IMG/VR virus record: IMGVR_UViG_3300046642_000350
Coordinates: 1 to 64,000 of that record
Length of the DNA: 64,000 nt
Strand: one strand, 5' to 3'
Source: a virus
Shown: in pieces, positions 10,423 through 59,621 of the stretch
Layout of the letters: every line of letters starts with the position of its first letter
Numbering within the stretch: the first letter of the stretch is position 1
The notes under the pieces: model-generated
What the model was told of the DNA's origin: nothing
The model's database searches: none
Seen by the model: the letters and a program-made list of their open reading frames with translations, nothing else
Made by a program: the position numbers and the translations under genes

Positions 10423-13400
10423 ATGGCGACGTTGAGAGACTTCATGGCGCAAGTCGTGCCCTGGCCCAACGACGGGCCAGGGTACGTCAATCTTCATTGG
10501 ACATCGCCCAAGGGGCCGGGGTTACGGGGGAAACCATTCAGGGACCTGGATGCGTTTGTTGATTTTGCGCTGGCGGCTGCCACCAAGCCGGCGTATTACA
10601 AAGATGTTTGGTTTTGTCTTTCCCAGCAGTCCACTGCCGGCGAAATTAAAAACGGTTGGCGGCGGGCTATTCGTACGCAGCAGTGCGCCACGCACCTGAA
10701 GGCGATTTGGCTGGACGTGGATGTCAAGGCTAACTCGGAGAAACATTATGGATCAACAGCAGAAGGACTTGCGGCGCTTGCGGCGTTCATACTTGAAGCT
10801 GTACTTCCCCCACCGTCCGCCATTGTGTTTTCAGGCTCAGGAGGCTTCCACGTCTACTGGATCAGCGACAAAGCCCTCACGCAAGAAGAGTGGCGCCCGT
10901 ACGCCGAAGGGCTCAAAGCCGCAGCCATCAAGCACGGGCTCAAATGCGATGCTGGTCTTACTACCGATGCTGCAAGGGTTCTCCGTGTACCTGGAACATT
11001 CAACTACAAAGGGGGTACACCGCGAGCCGTTAGGCTTGCTCACTTGGGAGAAAGCCTGGATTTTGCGGGACGACTTGCGGGGACGCGATGTGGCGTACCC
11101 GATCGTTATAAAGTTGTTACCGGAGCGGTAGCAGTACCGGCGTGGGCCACTGGTAAAAAGATGGCAGCGGTGTTTGTTGGCCTCGATCCCAAGGCGGATC
11201 GCTTGACAGCCGGGCATGACGACACCCCGCTCGATCCAACCACGATCTTTAAGAACTGCATTCACTACAAAGACGCCCTCGCCACGCAGGGCAAGGAGCA
11301 CCCTGAGCCACTGTGGAACCTGACGCTCCTTGGGGCGACGTGGTTCGAGGACGGGCGTACGTGGGCGCACAAGCTATCCGAGGGGCATCCTGACTACAAC
11401 AAGGAGAGCACCGATGACAAGTTTAACCAGAAACTCGCACGTAGGGCGCAAGGTACCGGTTGGCCTTCGTGCAATGCTTTTGAGAGCGCAGGCGCGGGCT
11501 GCATCAAGTGCCCATTCCACGGGCGGGTACGGTCGCCGCTTAACCTGGCTGAACGGGTACCTACGTCCGATGCGCTTGATCACACGCCCCCGCCACCTGA
11601 AGACCTGATGCTCCCTGACGGGTACACGGTGGACCCGACGACTGGGTGGATATGCAAAATCGTCACCCGTGCCCTCGCCGGGGGGTTTACGTCGAACGAG
11701 CTTCGCCCCCTGTTCATGTGTCGGATACGCAACCCGATCCTGCAACGGGGCAACCGCAAGATATTGTTCGAGACCTCCCTTGACGGCGATGCCTGGGGCC
11801 CGGTATCCGTCCTTGAGACAGACCTGACCACGGAGCAAACCCTGGTCAAGACTCTGCGTACGCACGGGTGCAAGCCCTACCCCGACAACCAAAAATTCCT
11901 GGTGCAGTTCATGACATCATTTACAGCGAAACTCGATCTCGCCAAGCAGCGCATCAACACCGTGTCCTTCGGGTGGCTCCGCAAGGAGGAAGGGGGGCAG
12001 GAGCCCATCGGGTTCGCCTACGGTGGCCGCGTGGTGCTAGCCAACGGCAGCGAACAGGTGGCGGGCTTCTCCGATAAGACCGTGGAGGCGAGTTACAAGC
12101 CCAAGGGTTCCGAGGAACCGTGGTGGGAACTGCACAGGATTATAACCGCGCAGGTGCATCCGTCGCTCGAAGTGATCTCGGCCGCTGGCTTCGGGGCGCC
12201 GCTCATGTACGCCACCAACCAGTACAGCGCAGTGCTGGCGCCATGGTCCCCTGAGTCCGGTGCGCACAAGAGTACAAGCATCGCCTCTGGATGCTCGATC
12301 TGGGCTTCACCGGTTATGGTGAAAGAGCGCCCGATGTCCTCGCAGAAAGGCGTCATGCGGATGATGGCGCACATCCGCAACCTGCCGGTGTTCCTGGACG
12401 AGATCAGTGAGGTGGCGCACATGGACGAGGTGCGTACCATGGTCAATTACCTGAGCGAGGGTGCGGACGGGTCCAAGCTGCACCAGGACCGCACACTGTA
12501 CGCCAAGGAGAGTTGGCAGACGCTGATCGTTGTCGGCTCCAATCAATCCCTGTGCGAGAACATCATCCGTAACATCCAGTACACGGACGCCAAGCTGCAG
12601 CGGGTGTTCGAGTTCATCGTTACCCCTCGCCCCGACAGCGCCGATCCGAACCATGTGGCGTCCCTGGTTAACTCGCTCGATCACAACTATGGCGGCGTGG
12701 GACTGCTGTATAGCCGCTTGCTGGGCCGCGACCCTGCGGGTATCTCTAGATACGTCAAAAGCGTGCATGACCGGTTCAACAAGGAGGTCGGGCATGTATC
12801 GGCGGAACGCATGCGGTCAGCGGCAGCGGTCGCCACGTTCGCAGGTGCGGAACTCGCCAACACGCTGGGGTGCAGTTTCCACTTGGAGGAAATGTGGTCG
12901 TACCTGAAAGAGCAGTATTTCGTCCAGCGGGACCGCACCAAGAGCGCCAACACGATCGGCGGCACGGCAGAGAACACCCTGGATATGTTTACCCAGTTCA
13001 TCAAGGGCAACGTACAGAACATCCTGGTGGTGCAGACCATGCCGGTCAAGCGCAAGGGGCATCCGGCGCCGATCACCTACGTATCCGGGCCCACCCGCGA
13101 CCGCCCGTACGCGGTGCACGTAAGATTTTCGCAGACAGAGCGTGTGATCGAGGTGTCCCGCAAGAAGCTGGAGAGTTGGCTGGCGCACGGGAAAACCGTC
13201 CCGGGTCCGGTGATCTCCGGGCTCAAGAACCACTTCAAAGCCACCGAGACCGTGGGGGTGGATCTGGCGGCTGGTTCCGGGGTGGCCGGCGGCCGGGAAA
13301 AGATTATCTCGATCCCGGTTCCGGCCGGGTCACCGTTCGAGGGTGTGCTGTTGACGAATGCCACGGCGGAAGACGTGCTGGGCAAGCCGAACGGGAAGAT

Positions 13401-13488
13401 TACCGCGAAGGTAACGGCCCCCGCCGCCGATGGTGAGCAGTTGGCGCTGGATTTGCCGCTACCCGCCCAGATTGAAAGGACGCACTAA
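10423..13488 (+). CDS. Archaeo-eukaryotic primase / helicase fusion (PrimPol-like, DUF927-type ATPase)
   Basis: A 1,021-residue replication protein. The N-terminal domain has AEP primase motifs: WLDVDVK (D98, D100), FSGSGGFHVYW (H143) and RVLRVPGTFNYKGG (about 185-198). Residues 238-264 carry a motif shared with the upstream candidate SSB. A cysteine pattern (AGCIKCPFHG) lies near residue 365. The C-terminal half resembles DUF927/SF3-type ATPases: a degenerate Walker A SPESGAHKST (K616) and Walker B PVFLDEIS (D659), then a GSNQS sensor-like motif. It should prime and unwind DNA for the family A polymerase. The extreme C-terminus has EQLALDLP, a clamp-binding-like motif. It overlaps the next gene by TAATG. 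Confidence 0.88.
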   Translation: MATLRDFMAQVVPWPNDGPGYVNLHWTSPKGPGLRGKPFRDLDAFVDFALAAATKPAYYKDVWFCLSQQSTAGEIKNGWRRAIRTQQCATHLKAIWLDVDVKANSEKHYGSTAEGLAALAAFILEAVLPPPSAIVFSGSGGFHVYWISDKALTQEEWRPYAEGLKAAAIKHGLKCDAGLTTDAARVLRVPGTFNYKGGTPRAVRLAHLGESLDFAGRLAGTRCGVPDRYKVVTGAVAVPAWATGKKMAAVFVGLDPKADRLTAGHDDTPLDPTTIFKNCIHYKDALATQGKEHPEPLWNLTLLGATWFEDGRTWAHKLSEGHPDYNKESTDDKFNQKLARRAQGTGWPSCNAFESAGAGCIKCPFHGRVRSPLNLAERVPTSDALDHTPPPPEDLMLPDGYTVDPTTGWICKIVTRALAGGFTSNELRPLFMCRIRNPILQRGNRKILFETSLDGDAWGPVSVLETDLTTEQTLVKTLRTHGCKPYPDNQKFLVQFMTSFTAKLDLAKQRINTVSFGWLRKEEGGQEPIGFAYGGRVVLANGSEQVAGFSDKTVEASYKPKGSEEPWWELHRIITAQVHPSLEVISAAGFGAPLMYATNQYSAVLAPWSPESGAHKSTSIASGCSIWASPVMVKERPMSSQKGVMRMMAHIRNLPVFLDEISEVAHMDEVRTMVNYLSEGADGSKLHQDRTLYAKESWQTLIVVGSNQSLCENIIRNIQYTDAKLQRVFEFIVTPRPDSADPNHVASLVNSLDHNYGGVGLLYSRLLGRDPAGISRYVKSVHDRFNKEVGHVSAERMRSAAAVATFAGAELANTLGCSFHLEEMWSYLKEQYFVQRDRTKSANTIGGTAENTLDMFTQFIKGNVQNILVVQTMPVKRKGHPAPITYVSGPTRDRPYAVHVRFSQTERVIEVSRKKLESWLAHGKTVPGPVISGLKNHFKATETVGVDLAAGSGVAGGREKIISIPVPAGSPFEGVLLTNATAEDVLGKPNGKITAKVTAPAADGEQLALDLPLPAQIERTH
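13426..13458 (+). repeat. 33-bp exact direct repeat, copy 1 (copy 2 at 13794-13826)
   Basis: The 33 bases from GCCGATGGTGAGCAG through GGATTTGCCG occur again without mismatch at 13794-13826. Both copies are in frame and encode ADGEQLALDLP near the C-termini of two consecutive genes. The flanking bases differ at once, so only this tail module is shared. Confidence 0.95.
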
Positions 13489-13859
13489 TGGCTATATTAC
13501 AGGATAGATGTTGCACCGCACGCAAGCAATACCACTGTGGGCAGTGCCACTGCCGCATTGAGATCGGGGACCGATACCGGAAACAGGTCTATACAGAGGA
13601 TGGCCTTGTGACTTACCGGGCTCATCTCGACTGCGACGAGGTCGCCGATGAAATGAAACGCCTCGCCGGGATTGCGTGGAATTATGACGAGGACGCCTAT
13701 CCCCTCATTGATACGGTTTGCGAGCGTGAAGATGGGCCATGGATCAAAGAGAAGTTTCCTGAAGTTGCTAAGAGGCTGTGGACACGGAGCGTTGCCGATG
13801 GTGAGCAGTTGGCGCTGGATTTGCCGTCGCCCACTCAAGCCATTCCGCATCTTCAATAA
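13488..13859 (+). CDS. Zinc-binding protein with clamp-binding-like tail
   Basis: A 123-residue protein. The N-terminal half has CCTARKQYHCGQCHCRI and later HLDCDE, a probable zinc site of CxxCxC...HxxC type. A helical segment follows, then the tail VADGEQLALDLP that repeats the primase C-terminus at DNA level. It starts in the primase stop (TAATG) and is the last gene of the left operon. It may be a small replisome adaptor; no named family was identified. Its 3' end is overlapped by a convergent minus-strand gene. Confidence 0.7.
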   Translation: MAILQDRCCTARKQYHCGQCHCRIEIGDRYRKQVYTEDGLVTYRAHLDCDEVADEMKRLAGIAWNYDEDAYPLIDTVCEREDGPWIKEKFPEVAKRLWTRSVADGEQLALDLPSPTQAIPHLQ

Positions 13860-13935
13860 ACTCCCATATACCGGCATCGACTTCGAACGGGTCGGTGCCG
13901 GTATCCGGGTGGGCTAGACGTTTCGGGCGGCGCAT
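13768..13935 (-). CDS. Hypothetical 55-residue protein, convergent overlap
   Basis: Hand-translated minus-strand frame with a perfect GGAGG site eight bases before the ATG (CATs at 13933-13935). The product begins MRRPKRLAHPDTGTDPFEVD and has an acidic, Trp-containing middle (WEFIEDAEWLEWA). The last 92 bases overlap the 3' end of the plus-strand zinc protein. It would be the last gene of the minus block. The good ribosome site supports it; overlap with a real gene on the other strand lowers confidence. Confidence 0.5.
   Translation of the reverse strand: MRRPKRLAHPDTGTDPFEVDAGIWEFIEDAEWLEWATANPAPTAHHRQRSVSTAS
13794..13826 (+). repeat. 33-bp exact direct repeat, copy 2
   Basis: This is the second exact copy of the module at 13426-13458, 368 bases downstream. 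It encodes the tail of the zinc-binding protein. Confidence 0.95.
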
Positions 13936-42086: not shown

Positions 42087-42776
42087 TTACACCTTTCTGT
42101 TCTGGGGGGCATCTACGGTGTAATTGTCGAACATTGAAGCATTGTGGTCCGCCTTGTACCACCTAATGGGGGGTAGAATATGTTCGGCCTCCGCAAGGGT
42201 GTTCACCTCCCACGTCACGTTGTGCGTCTTCGCTATATGGGCTTGAACCGTGCGCTTGACCCCCTTATAGAGCTTGTAAACCTTACTACGAGGCACAACC
42301 ATCAGGCTGCCGCAGAACCGCCAGCACGGGAAATAATCGTTTATCAGAAGGCCCTGGTGCTCCCAACACCCCGGAATAGCGAAATCATCCGGCTCGATTG
42401 CCTCCAGGAACCGCTGCACGACCTCCGGGGTAACACCAGGCAGGCGGGCGATGCCGTAGTCGATCCAGATGTACGTATCCGCCGGATACTTAATGGCGGC
42501 CTTCATCAGCCACGCGAACTTCTGGTGCTGAACGCAGAGGTACGCCAGCGAGTTCTTAGCGGGGTTATCCCCCGCCGAATGGGTAACTTTGCCCGCGTGA
42601 AGCAGGTACTTATGCAGCCACGTCTCCGCTACAGTTTCGTAGAACGGCATAACAACACAATCCGCCGCAACACAGTCGATCTTGCCATACAGTTCCCCAA
42701 GCTCGCCATATTCCTTTGGCGAGCGCGTATGGTTTTGTATCGGCACGTAGCCGGTAACGACTACTTTTTTCGGCAT
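42087..42776 (-). CDS. Unassigned protein of glycan island, transferase-like
   Basis: A 229-residue protein; ATG 42776 overlaps the GT2-fusion gene end by 16 bases. It starts KKVVVTGYVPI, has a YIWIDYGIARLPG motif (possible D-x-D/metal-like site) and PGCWEHQGLLIND. This resembles hypothetical glycosyltransferase-like proteins, but I cannot name a family. Enzyme role is inferred from context. Confidence 0.55.
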   Translation of the reverse strand: MPKKVVVTGYVPIQNHTRSPKEYGELGELYGKIDCVAADCVVMPFYETVAETWLHKYLLHAGKVTHSAGDNPAKNSLAYLCVQHQKFAWLMKAAIKYPADTYIWIDYGIARLPGVTPEVVQRFLEAIEPDDFAIPGCWEHQGLLINDYFPCWRFCGSLMVVPRSKVYKLYKGVKRTVQAHIAKTHNVTWEVNTLAEAEHILPPIRWYKADHNASMFDNYTVDAPQNRKV

Positions 42777-44749
42777 ACGAAATTCCAAACCTCGTCGGGT
42801 CGCACCGTCGCCATGCGGGCTTCCTCGTCCTTGTACCCATATGAGATCATAAGATTCCCTTGGTTCCAGCACATACCGCCTACGAACTCGATACCCCGCT
42901 CGTGAAAGAAGAACGGCAGGGAGAACTTGGCGGTCTTGAATTCCTCGTCATACCAGACGAACCGATGGATGTAGTACCGAACAGCCTTACCCTGAAAATG
43001 CCGGGCCTCGTGCGTGATCGCAAGCCAGCCATCGTGGAACGGGATAAGTTGCGACGACCCACTGACGTTGTCGGTGGCAACGCCGAGGTCGTGCTTCCGC
43101 ACCGTAACACCGTTCGTATCCACAACCTCCCCCGGGCGCCACATGAAGTGTATGCCGCTCGGCAAAACGACAGGAGCCCAGTTCTTCTCGGTCTGGCGCG
43201 GCATGCGGAGCATGCGCTTCATGTCAGTGTGTACAAACCCGTTCTCGCTGGGCAGCAAGCGGGTTAACACTTGCTCGCAATTACCGTCAGCGTGGAGTTG
43301 CCGCACCGTGGACGACGACCACAGCAGCCCGTCCCAGTGTATCAGCCGCATGTCCTCGAAGCCGATAACGAGCGGCCACTCACAGGGCATATTGGGCGGG
43401 TTAAACACTTCCGCCGGGTGCCCCCACCCATGAAGGCCCATGGACATGATAAAGTTGCGTGTATTTATGGGGTTTTCCCCGTTCGCCGTCCCGTCCGTGC
43501 CCCGGATCAGGTACCGCCCTTCTTCGTCAATCCGGTAGTTCACGCACCGGATATTCACCACAGGGTACCCGTTGGCCGAAGTAACGCTGGGGTTCATCGC
43601 GATCCAGTTTTCGGGCGGCTCGAACGGGATACGCTCCCACCGAAACGACGGGCAGAAATGCGAAAGCGGCTCCAGGTAGTGAATGATATTGTCGCGGGCC
43701 CCATGCTTTACCCAGTCATACGGCCCCTTGTTCATCATCAGTTCGCCGCACGTGTCATACCCAATCTGCTTCTTACCCTCCACGTAGAAGGCAGAGATAG
43801 AAACTTCCTCCTTCACCCCAACATCGTAAACGAAGTTATTGACGAACAACGCATCCTTAGACAACGGCGTATCAACCGCCAACATGGCCGCCGTCATCGC
43901 CAGCCAGTTCCTCCCTTTCTCACGACAGTCCTTCGACAGGTCGTACATCGACTCGGCACGGGAGGGGCGCATGTCGTGGGCGAGCAACAGGTTACCAATA
44001 AACCCCGCATCGTCCCCCAGGTCCTTCAAACAATGGGCGTAGCACAGTTGTGCGTTCCACACCTCCTCATCCCAGCCCCCCGCCGCCACCCGCTTCTTGT
44101 ACCACTCGGCAGCAGAGGCATACTCACCGGCGTCCCGGTATGACTGCGCCAGATAGAACATGGCGCGTTCGTTCTTCGGGTCCTTCTCCAGATCGCCAAG
44201 CAGGAGTCGGATGTCGCGCTTGAACTTGTCGGGCCGGTTTGAACCGTCGGCGTGATCCTTGAAGTACGCCACCTCTTCCGGGATCAGGCCGGCTGTCGCG
44301 ATATCAAGATATTCGTGGGTTGCTCCACGGTAGCCCCCGGTAACACCGGAATGTATAAGCCTGCGGTTCTGATAATGGGTAGTCCCGGCAACCTGGTACA
44401 TATCATAGCTAGGGCCGTCGCGGCTCGCCATGAACTTGTCTCTGTCAAGGACGACAAGCTCCATGTCAGCGTCCATGAGAAGGAAGTAATCAGCCGGGTG
44501 CAGCAGAGAAAAAACTCTGGCGCAATCAAGGGCTGCATTACGAGCCTGCGACCAGTCTTCAAAGGGCGCTACACCCACCACACAAGGCAGATCATGGGTT
44601 CGAGCAAAACATTCAATCTCCGCTCTTGTATTATCAGAACTTCCTGTATCTACGACCGCAATACTCGTAATATACGGTAATGCGCTCTTAAGCATGCGTT
44701 CTATGCGTGCAGCCTCGTTCTTAACGATACAATTCAACATCAGGCGCAT
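42761..44749 (-). CDS. Fusion: GT2 glycosyltransferase, TPR segment and GH130-like propeller
   Basis: A 662-residue protein. Residues 1-110 show the GT2 fold: NCIVKNEAARIERML, VVDTGSSDNT and LLMDADMEL (DxD). Residues about 185-280 have helix pairs like TPRs (NERAMFYLAQSYRDAGEYAS). Residues about 330-660 resemble the GH130 mannoside-phosphorylase propeller: VIGFEDMRLIHWDGLLWSSS and FHERGIEFVGGMCWNQGNLM. The combination suggests glycan synthesis or modification in one chain. It is preceded by a terminator hairpin. Confidence 0.8.
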   Translation of the reverse strand: MRLMLNCIVKNEAARIERMLKSALPYITSIAVVDTGSSDNTRAEIECFARTHDLPCVVGVAPFEDWSQARNAALDCARVFSLLHPADYFLLMDADMELVVLDRDKFMASRDGPSYDMYQVAGTTHYQNRRLIHSGVTGGYRGATHEYLDIATAGLIPEEVAYFKDHADGSNRPDKFKRDIRLLLGDLEKDPKNERAMFYLAQSYRDAGEYASAAEWYKKRVAAGGWDEEVWNAQLCYAHCLKDLGDDAGFIGNLLLAHDMRPSRAESMYDLSKDCREKGRNWLAMTAAMLAVDTPLSKDALFVNNFVYDVGVKEEVSISAFYVEGKKQIGYDTCGELMMNKGPYDWVKHGARDNIIHYLEPLSHFCPSFRWERIPFEPPENWIAMNPSVTSANGYPVVNIRCVNYRIDEEGRYLIRGTDGTANGENPINTRNFIMSMGLHGWGHPAEVFNPPNMPCEWPLVIGFEDMRLIHWDGLLWSSSTVRQLHADGNCEQVLTRLLPSENGFVHTDMKRMLRMPRQTEKNWAPVVLPSGIHFMWRPGEVVDTNGVTVRKHDLGVATDNVSGSSQLIPFHDGWLAITHEARHFQGKAVRYYIHRFVWYDEEFKTAKFSLPFFFHERGIEFVGGMCWNQGNLMISYGYKDEEARMATVRPDEVWNFVCRKK

Positions 44750-56072: not shown

Positions 56073-59621
<3,549 letters not shown>

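Follow-up and report, generated by a model that had tools for sequence, protein, structure and literature searches.

A candidate Hda-type clamp-docking peptide encoded by a 33-bp repeat in two adjacent genes of a phage replication block

Clamp-binding motifs in hosts and mobile elements

Short motifs that bind the bacterial sliding clamp are familiar from the host's replication and repair proteins, and also from plasmid initiators and transposases. Phages, too, act on this ring: gp168 of phage Twort is a protein that inhibits the sliding clamp in Staphylococcus. A clamp review that names Twort gp168 also describes a hexapeptide class of binding motif, Q-phi-x-[L/M]-x-[F/L], which is frequently found in disordered termini (PMC11139829). 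In living Caulobacter cells, HdaA was found to depend on its box, QFKLPL, for binding DnaN (PMC3836487). Among mobile elements, the RK2 plasmid initiator TrfA recruits the host beta clamp via a short motif (PMC4980987), and C-terminal beta-binding motifs have been described in the transposases of nine IS families and of Tn7, with an IS1634 transposase from an alphaproteobacterium as a demonstrated case (PMC4549789). The phage replicative helicase SPP1 gp40, for its part, recruits the host replisome via DnaG and DnaX (PMC6316719).

Here we describe a phage locus in which two consecutive genes, a primase-helicase gene and a small gene behind it, encode the peptide ADGEQLALDLP near their 3' ends. 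The hexapeptide within it, QLALDL, is of the same Q-phi-x-L-x-L type as the Hda and HdaA boxes (QLSLPL in E. coli, QFKLPL in Caulobacter) and, in the primase-helicase, lies like them in a terminus that is predicted to be disordered. However, the Hda box is N-terminal, before the AAA+ domain, whereas the phage boxes, which would bind the clamp in the same manner, lie near the C-termini of two unrelated proteins, the primase-helicase and the small one. TrfA offers a parallel in that a mobile element equips its replication protein with a clamp motif, although TrfA is an iteron-binding initiator whose motif is internal; in the phage the box is C-terminal, its bearer is a primase-helicase, and a second protein is tagged as well. 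The transposases are alike in that proteins of mobile elements have convergently come to carry clamp motifs at the C-terminus; theirs, however, is the pentapeptide QLxLF, whereas the phage has the hexapeptide type on replication proteins. SPP1 gp40 differs in that its contacts are with the clamp loader and the primase rather than with the clamp via a short linear motif. As for the enzyme itself, the SCCmec Cch and SaPI Rep helicases and the PrimPol-helicases have the same helicase fold (5dgk, 8tch), yet these are distant in sequence from the phage protein (12-14% in structural alignment). A limited survey of the open-access literature turned up no description of a clamp motif on phage primase-helicases.

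An in-frame repeat in two consecutive genes

The stretch of DNA analysed (the window) comprises positions 1 to 64,000 of the virus record IMGVR_UViG_3300046642_000350, which is 67,431 bp long. Its primase-helicase gene (10423..13488, plus strand) lies in a replication block that also encodes a family-A DNA polymerase, a PD-(D/E)XK exonuclease, a VRR-NUC-like nuclease and an SNF2 helicase. By profile and Foldseek matches, the 1021-aa product has a PrimPol/RepB-like primase N-terminus and a DUF927/Cch-like AAA+ helicase C-terminus. Residues 7-966 match PHROG 25314 (E 7.7e-153), a full-length family match; DUF927 was matched with an E-value of 1.2e-8, RepB_primase below threshold and the family NF047345 weakly. 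The AF2 model, built on a 33-sequence alignment (mean pLDDT 82), retrieved the SCCmec Cch helicase 5dgk, the SaPIBov1 replication initiator 8tch and PrimPol/RepB' structures in Foldseek. The initial annotation, which had named this gene a primase-helicase, is borne out by the PHROG, DUF927 and Cch/PrimPol structure matches. The ADGEQLALDLP tail lies outside the PHROG 25314 profile, within residues 986-1021 (13378..13485, plus strand), which are predicted to be disordered (all pLDDT below 50). The QLALDL of the primase-helicase is thus predicted to sit in a disordered terminus, as exposed clamp motifs often do.

Elsewhere, the window holds a low-complexity repeat encoding GLGLGPGL at its very start (47-160) and two long genes on the minus strand. 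One, in the structural region (42761-44749), encodes a 662-aa protein with a family-2 glycosyltransferase domain and TPR repeats; the other (56073-59621) encodes a protein of 1182 aa that has a PKD-like match as well as collagen-like repeats and is probably a fibre or tail-associated protein.

The shared peptide is encoded by an exact 33-bp direct repeat, whose copies start 368 bp apart on the plus strand and are both in frame. Copy 1 (13426..13458) specifies residues 1002-1012 of the primase-helicase, and copy 2 (13794..13826) residues 103-113 of the 123-aa small protein, whose gene (13488..13859, plus strand) begins with a start codon that overlaps the primase stop (TAATG). The hexapeptide occupies residues 1006-1011 (13438..13455) and 107-112 (13806..13823), respectively, both on the plus strand. 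The shared tail noted in the initial annotation is therefore exact and in frame, but it does not end the two genes, as had been stated: nine residues (LPAQIERTH) follow it in the primase-helicase and ten (SPTQAIPHLQ) in the small protein before the stops are reached. The repeat can be extended to 44 bp at 89% identity, with an abrupt drop past the 33 identical bases (6 of the next 11 bases agree). Shuffled sequences are expected to hold no such repeat, while the window holds it in two places; these are also the only copies in the whole record when up to three mismatches are allowed over a 29-bp core.

Had the same 11 amino acids been encoded independently, agreement at all 11 codons would have a probability of 1.1e-5 under the phage's codon usage. 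Since all 11 are identical, one DNA segment was copied, i.e., the repeat is a DNA-level copy event. Being identical, the two copies go back to a single evolutionary event, to be counted once and not as independent witnesses, and, because they show no divergence, selection cannot be read from them. RNA folding around copy 1 is no better than that of shuffles (z 0.24), and a role of the repeat as an RNA structure was rejected at this copy for want of a folding signal. The region 13770-13915 folds with a z of -3.41; it includes a strong hairpin (13863..13909, an inverted repeat), which lies near copy 2 but downstream of the repeat, not within it. This hairpin is a probable bidirectional terminator between convergent gene blocks, closing the early operon.

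The small protein contains C17-x2-C20 and H46-x2-C49, and the label 'zinc protein' is putative, derived entirely from this CxxC/HxxC motif. It matches PHROG 7314 (E 1.8e-7) and has weak relatives in the cyanophage Pan1 of Pseudanabaena and in locus L118; the ADGEQLALDLP tail is absent from the only homologues that could be aligned, Pan1 included. A PDB sequence search gave no match, a search of 385 alphaproteobacterial genomes gave marginal matches, and an AF2 model from the single sequence was uninformative (pLDDT 36 throughout). The small gene has a GC content of 0.54 versus 0.60 for the primase gene, and its GC3 is lower as well. What follows the primase-helicase gene varies greatly among relatives: 45 examples, ORFs chosen mechanically, fell into 32 clusters. 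The position between the primase-helicase gene and the convergent block thus appears to be a variable cargo slot, in which the small gene sits.

Comparison with alphaproteobacterial Hda boxes

The closest named structural relatives of the phage infect Rhizobium, and an alphaproteobacterial host is plausible. Since its portal protein is 60% identical to that of the Rhizobium phages RHph_TM27A and TM3_14A, and its polymerase 39% identical to that of Rhizobium phages, we took the Alphaproteobacteria as the source of Hda sequences for comparison. We gathered 90 Hda proteins through a search with the Hda-lid family, independently of the phage peptide, lined up the N-terminal parts on the AAA+ core and built a position-specific scoring matrix (PSSM) from the 84 boxes found at a fixed distance from it. 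This family-based matrix replaced an earlier one, which was biased by four Hda boxes that had been found with a target-like pattern.

The consensus of the 84 boxes is Q[LI][PA][LF]D[LF][PG], and three of them (L230, L239 and L254) are exactly QLALDL. The hexapeptide satisfies the Q-phi-x-[L/M]-x-[F/L] definition in both phage proteins and scores 18.2 bits on the Hda PSSM, above 82% of the real boxes, while the next-best hexamer across the phage proteome reaches 10.3 bits. Shuffled proteomes yielded 0.012 hits at or above the phage score, a figure that gives an order of magnitude, since the family and the class were picked once the peptide had been seen. Position 7 is proline in the phage tails, as it is in 32 of the 84 Hda boxes. 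The resemblance to a beta-clamp motif proposed in the initial annotation is thus upheld, in that the peptide fits the definition and lies in a tail of the primase-helicase predicted to be disordered. Judged by its sequence, QLALDL is the kind of clamp box typical of Hda in Alphaproteobacteria, the host of the phage being one that we infer. The likeness appears confined to the box: Pfam scans of both phage proteins matched neither Bac_DnaA nor Hda_lid, and by these profiles neither is an Hda. The candidate clamp-docking peptides of the phage are ADGEQLALDLPLPAQ and ADGEQLALDLPSPTQ.

DNA encoding DGEQLALDLP had no match among viral contigs. The shorter EQLALDLP, written with CTN leucine codons, occurs in 75 other viral contigs; nearly all of these occurrences belong to one conserved, folded ATPase-like family or to unlikely reading frames, and we rejected them as evidence of clamp tails. 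Similarly, QLVLHL (15.5 bits) and QLILHL in the SNF2 helicases of relatives are probable false positives within a conserved helicase-domain segment. The SNF2 helicase of relative L043 (715-2289), whose conserved QLVLHLQSTP scores as Hda-like, illustrates this trap for motif scans. Because EQLALDLP also occurs in folded contexts, the letters alone are insufficient for binding; the strength of the case lies in the disordered terminal position and the score together.

Distribution of the tail and a model for docking

Single-protein queries of IMG/VR returned no close homologue for either gene. An alignment query for the primase-helicase retrieved 277 viral relatives, and we retained 80 of them. 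Requiring an intact C-terminus (a stop codon and an alignment extending past residue 800) left 72 loci with 67 distinct sequences, named phages included. In none of these 67, the Rhizobium phages among them, do the last 60 residues contain a clamp motif. The relative that comes nearest (L033/L117; 48% identical in the N-terminal part, 38% in the rest) has a different tail, no clamp motif and no small zinc protein, and when the annotated proteins of Rhizobium phage RHph_TM3_14A were scanned, no convincing clamp box emerged. The initial annotation had looked to homologues for retention of the Q and the two L residues and took a missing tail as counting against its proposal; every homologue found is indeed without the tail. 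These homologues are distant (about 23-48% identity), and their lack of it speaks of lineage restriction rather than of a lack of function. As far as these sequences go, this lineage alone has the tail, and selection cannot be shown. Conservation in orthologues is not strictly required of a lineage-specific motif, but the support that it usually provides is withheld here. Of the earlier proposal that the module was 'copied or conserved under selection', then, the copying is supported and the selection is not.

Several of the relatives deserve mention in their own right. The C-termini of five primase-helicases (L008, L012, L015, L039 and L049) share a PVDTG-like word outside the conserved domain (e.g., PGPVDTGLT, EPVDTGILT, EPLETGLDP), possibly a different docking motif. 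In L075 (3290-4615) and L076 (2967-4292), the gene directly upstream of the primase-helicase encodes, 42 residues before the C-terminus, GQLDLFDEPEE, which contains a canonical clamp pentapeptide; in a related replication block, a clamp motif may thus sit on another gene. Lastly, in L033/L117, which is the 65.8-kb record IMGVR_UViG_3300031718_000007, the primase-helicase gene is split over both contig ends, and the record is therefore probably circularly permuted.

In line with the initial annotation, no DnaN is recognisable in the virus record (no match to PF00712 or PF02767). Because the phage encodes a family-A DNA polymerase of its own, which has no Hda-like box, the host clamp may be needless for the processivity of that polymerase. 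We consider it reasonably probable that the shared tail is an Hda-type docking peptide for the host clamp, borne by the primase-helicase and, through copying, by the small protein as well. The QLALDL in the disordered C-terminus of the primase-helicase would enter the hydrophobic pocket of the host DnaN, tethering the enzyme to clamps loaded on replicating DNA. Priming and unwinding would thereby be linked with the host clamp, perhaps with the host Pol III too, or would be brought to phage forks. The 33-bp stretch would then have been copied recently, at the DNA level and presumably in this direction, giving the same hook to a second protein of the operon, the small CxxC/HxxC cargo.

A less functional account, which we regard as unlikely but the most serious of the alternatives, is that recombination left the repeat behind. 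Either the insertion of the small gene at the primase gene's 3' end or a short duplication there would have produced 33 bp that fall in frame in both genes by chance, and the likeness of the peptide to a clamp box would be a neutral coincidence. That a DNA event made the second copy follows from the 11 identical codons, and the great variability of the slot (45 mechanically chosen ORFs in 32 clusters), the lower GC and GC3 of the small gene and the retention of the tail in none of the relatives would all be expected. Such an account leaves unexplained, however, why the copied peptide should outscore most real Hda boxes, when about 0.012 hits of this quality are expected per whole proteome and fewer still in a terminal position.

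The other two alternatives appear weaker. Were the tails to block the clamp, an abundant small protein and the primase would compete with the host Hda, Pol III and repair proteins, inhibiting host replication or disturbing RIDA (DnaA inactivation). Competition with Hda would be chemically natural for a motif that is specifically Hda-like, and Twort gp168 offers a precedent for a clamp-inhibiting phage protein; yet a motif that the phage carries on its own primase-helicase is more in keeping with a role at the fork than with blockade, and gp168 is, to our knowledge, not a QLxLxL peptide; we consider blocking improbable. Least credible, in our estimate, is that the repeat acts as DNA or RNA (a recombination core, a protein-binding site or an RNA element) with the peptide incidental. 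The perfect identity of synonymous sites over 33 bp and the sharp drop beyond them are what such an element would show, but a record with just two copies, unremarkable folding at copy 1 and a hairpin that lies downstream of copy 2 all speak against it.

Returning to docking on the host clamp, the locus raises a further, more tentative possibility. The clamp ring of the host has two pockets, and a single docking peptide, copied as a 33-bp module onto two unrelated proteins, might tether both to the same ring, making it a transferable tag that moves as DNA; we deem this conceivable rather than probable. If these readings are true, the host clamp would still be used by a phage that has a polymerase of its own, and the copying of a short stretch of DNA would have carried a docking peptide from one gene to its neighbour. 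One peptide, one pocket and two proteins would also provide a simple, testable handle.
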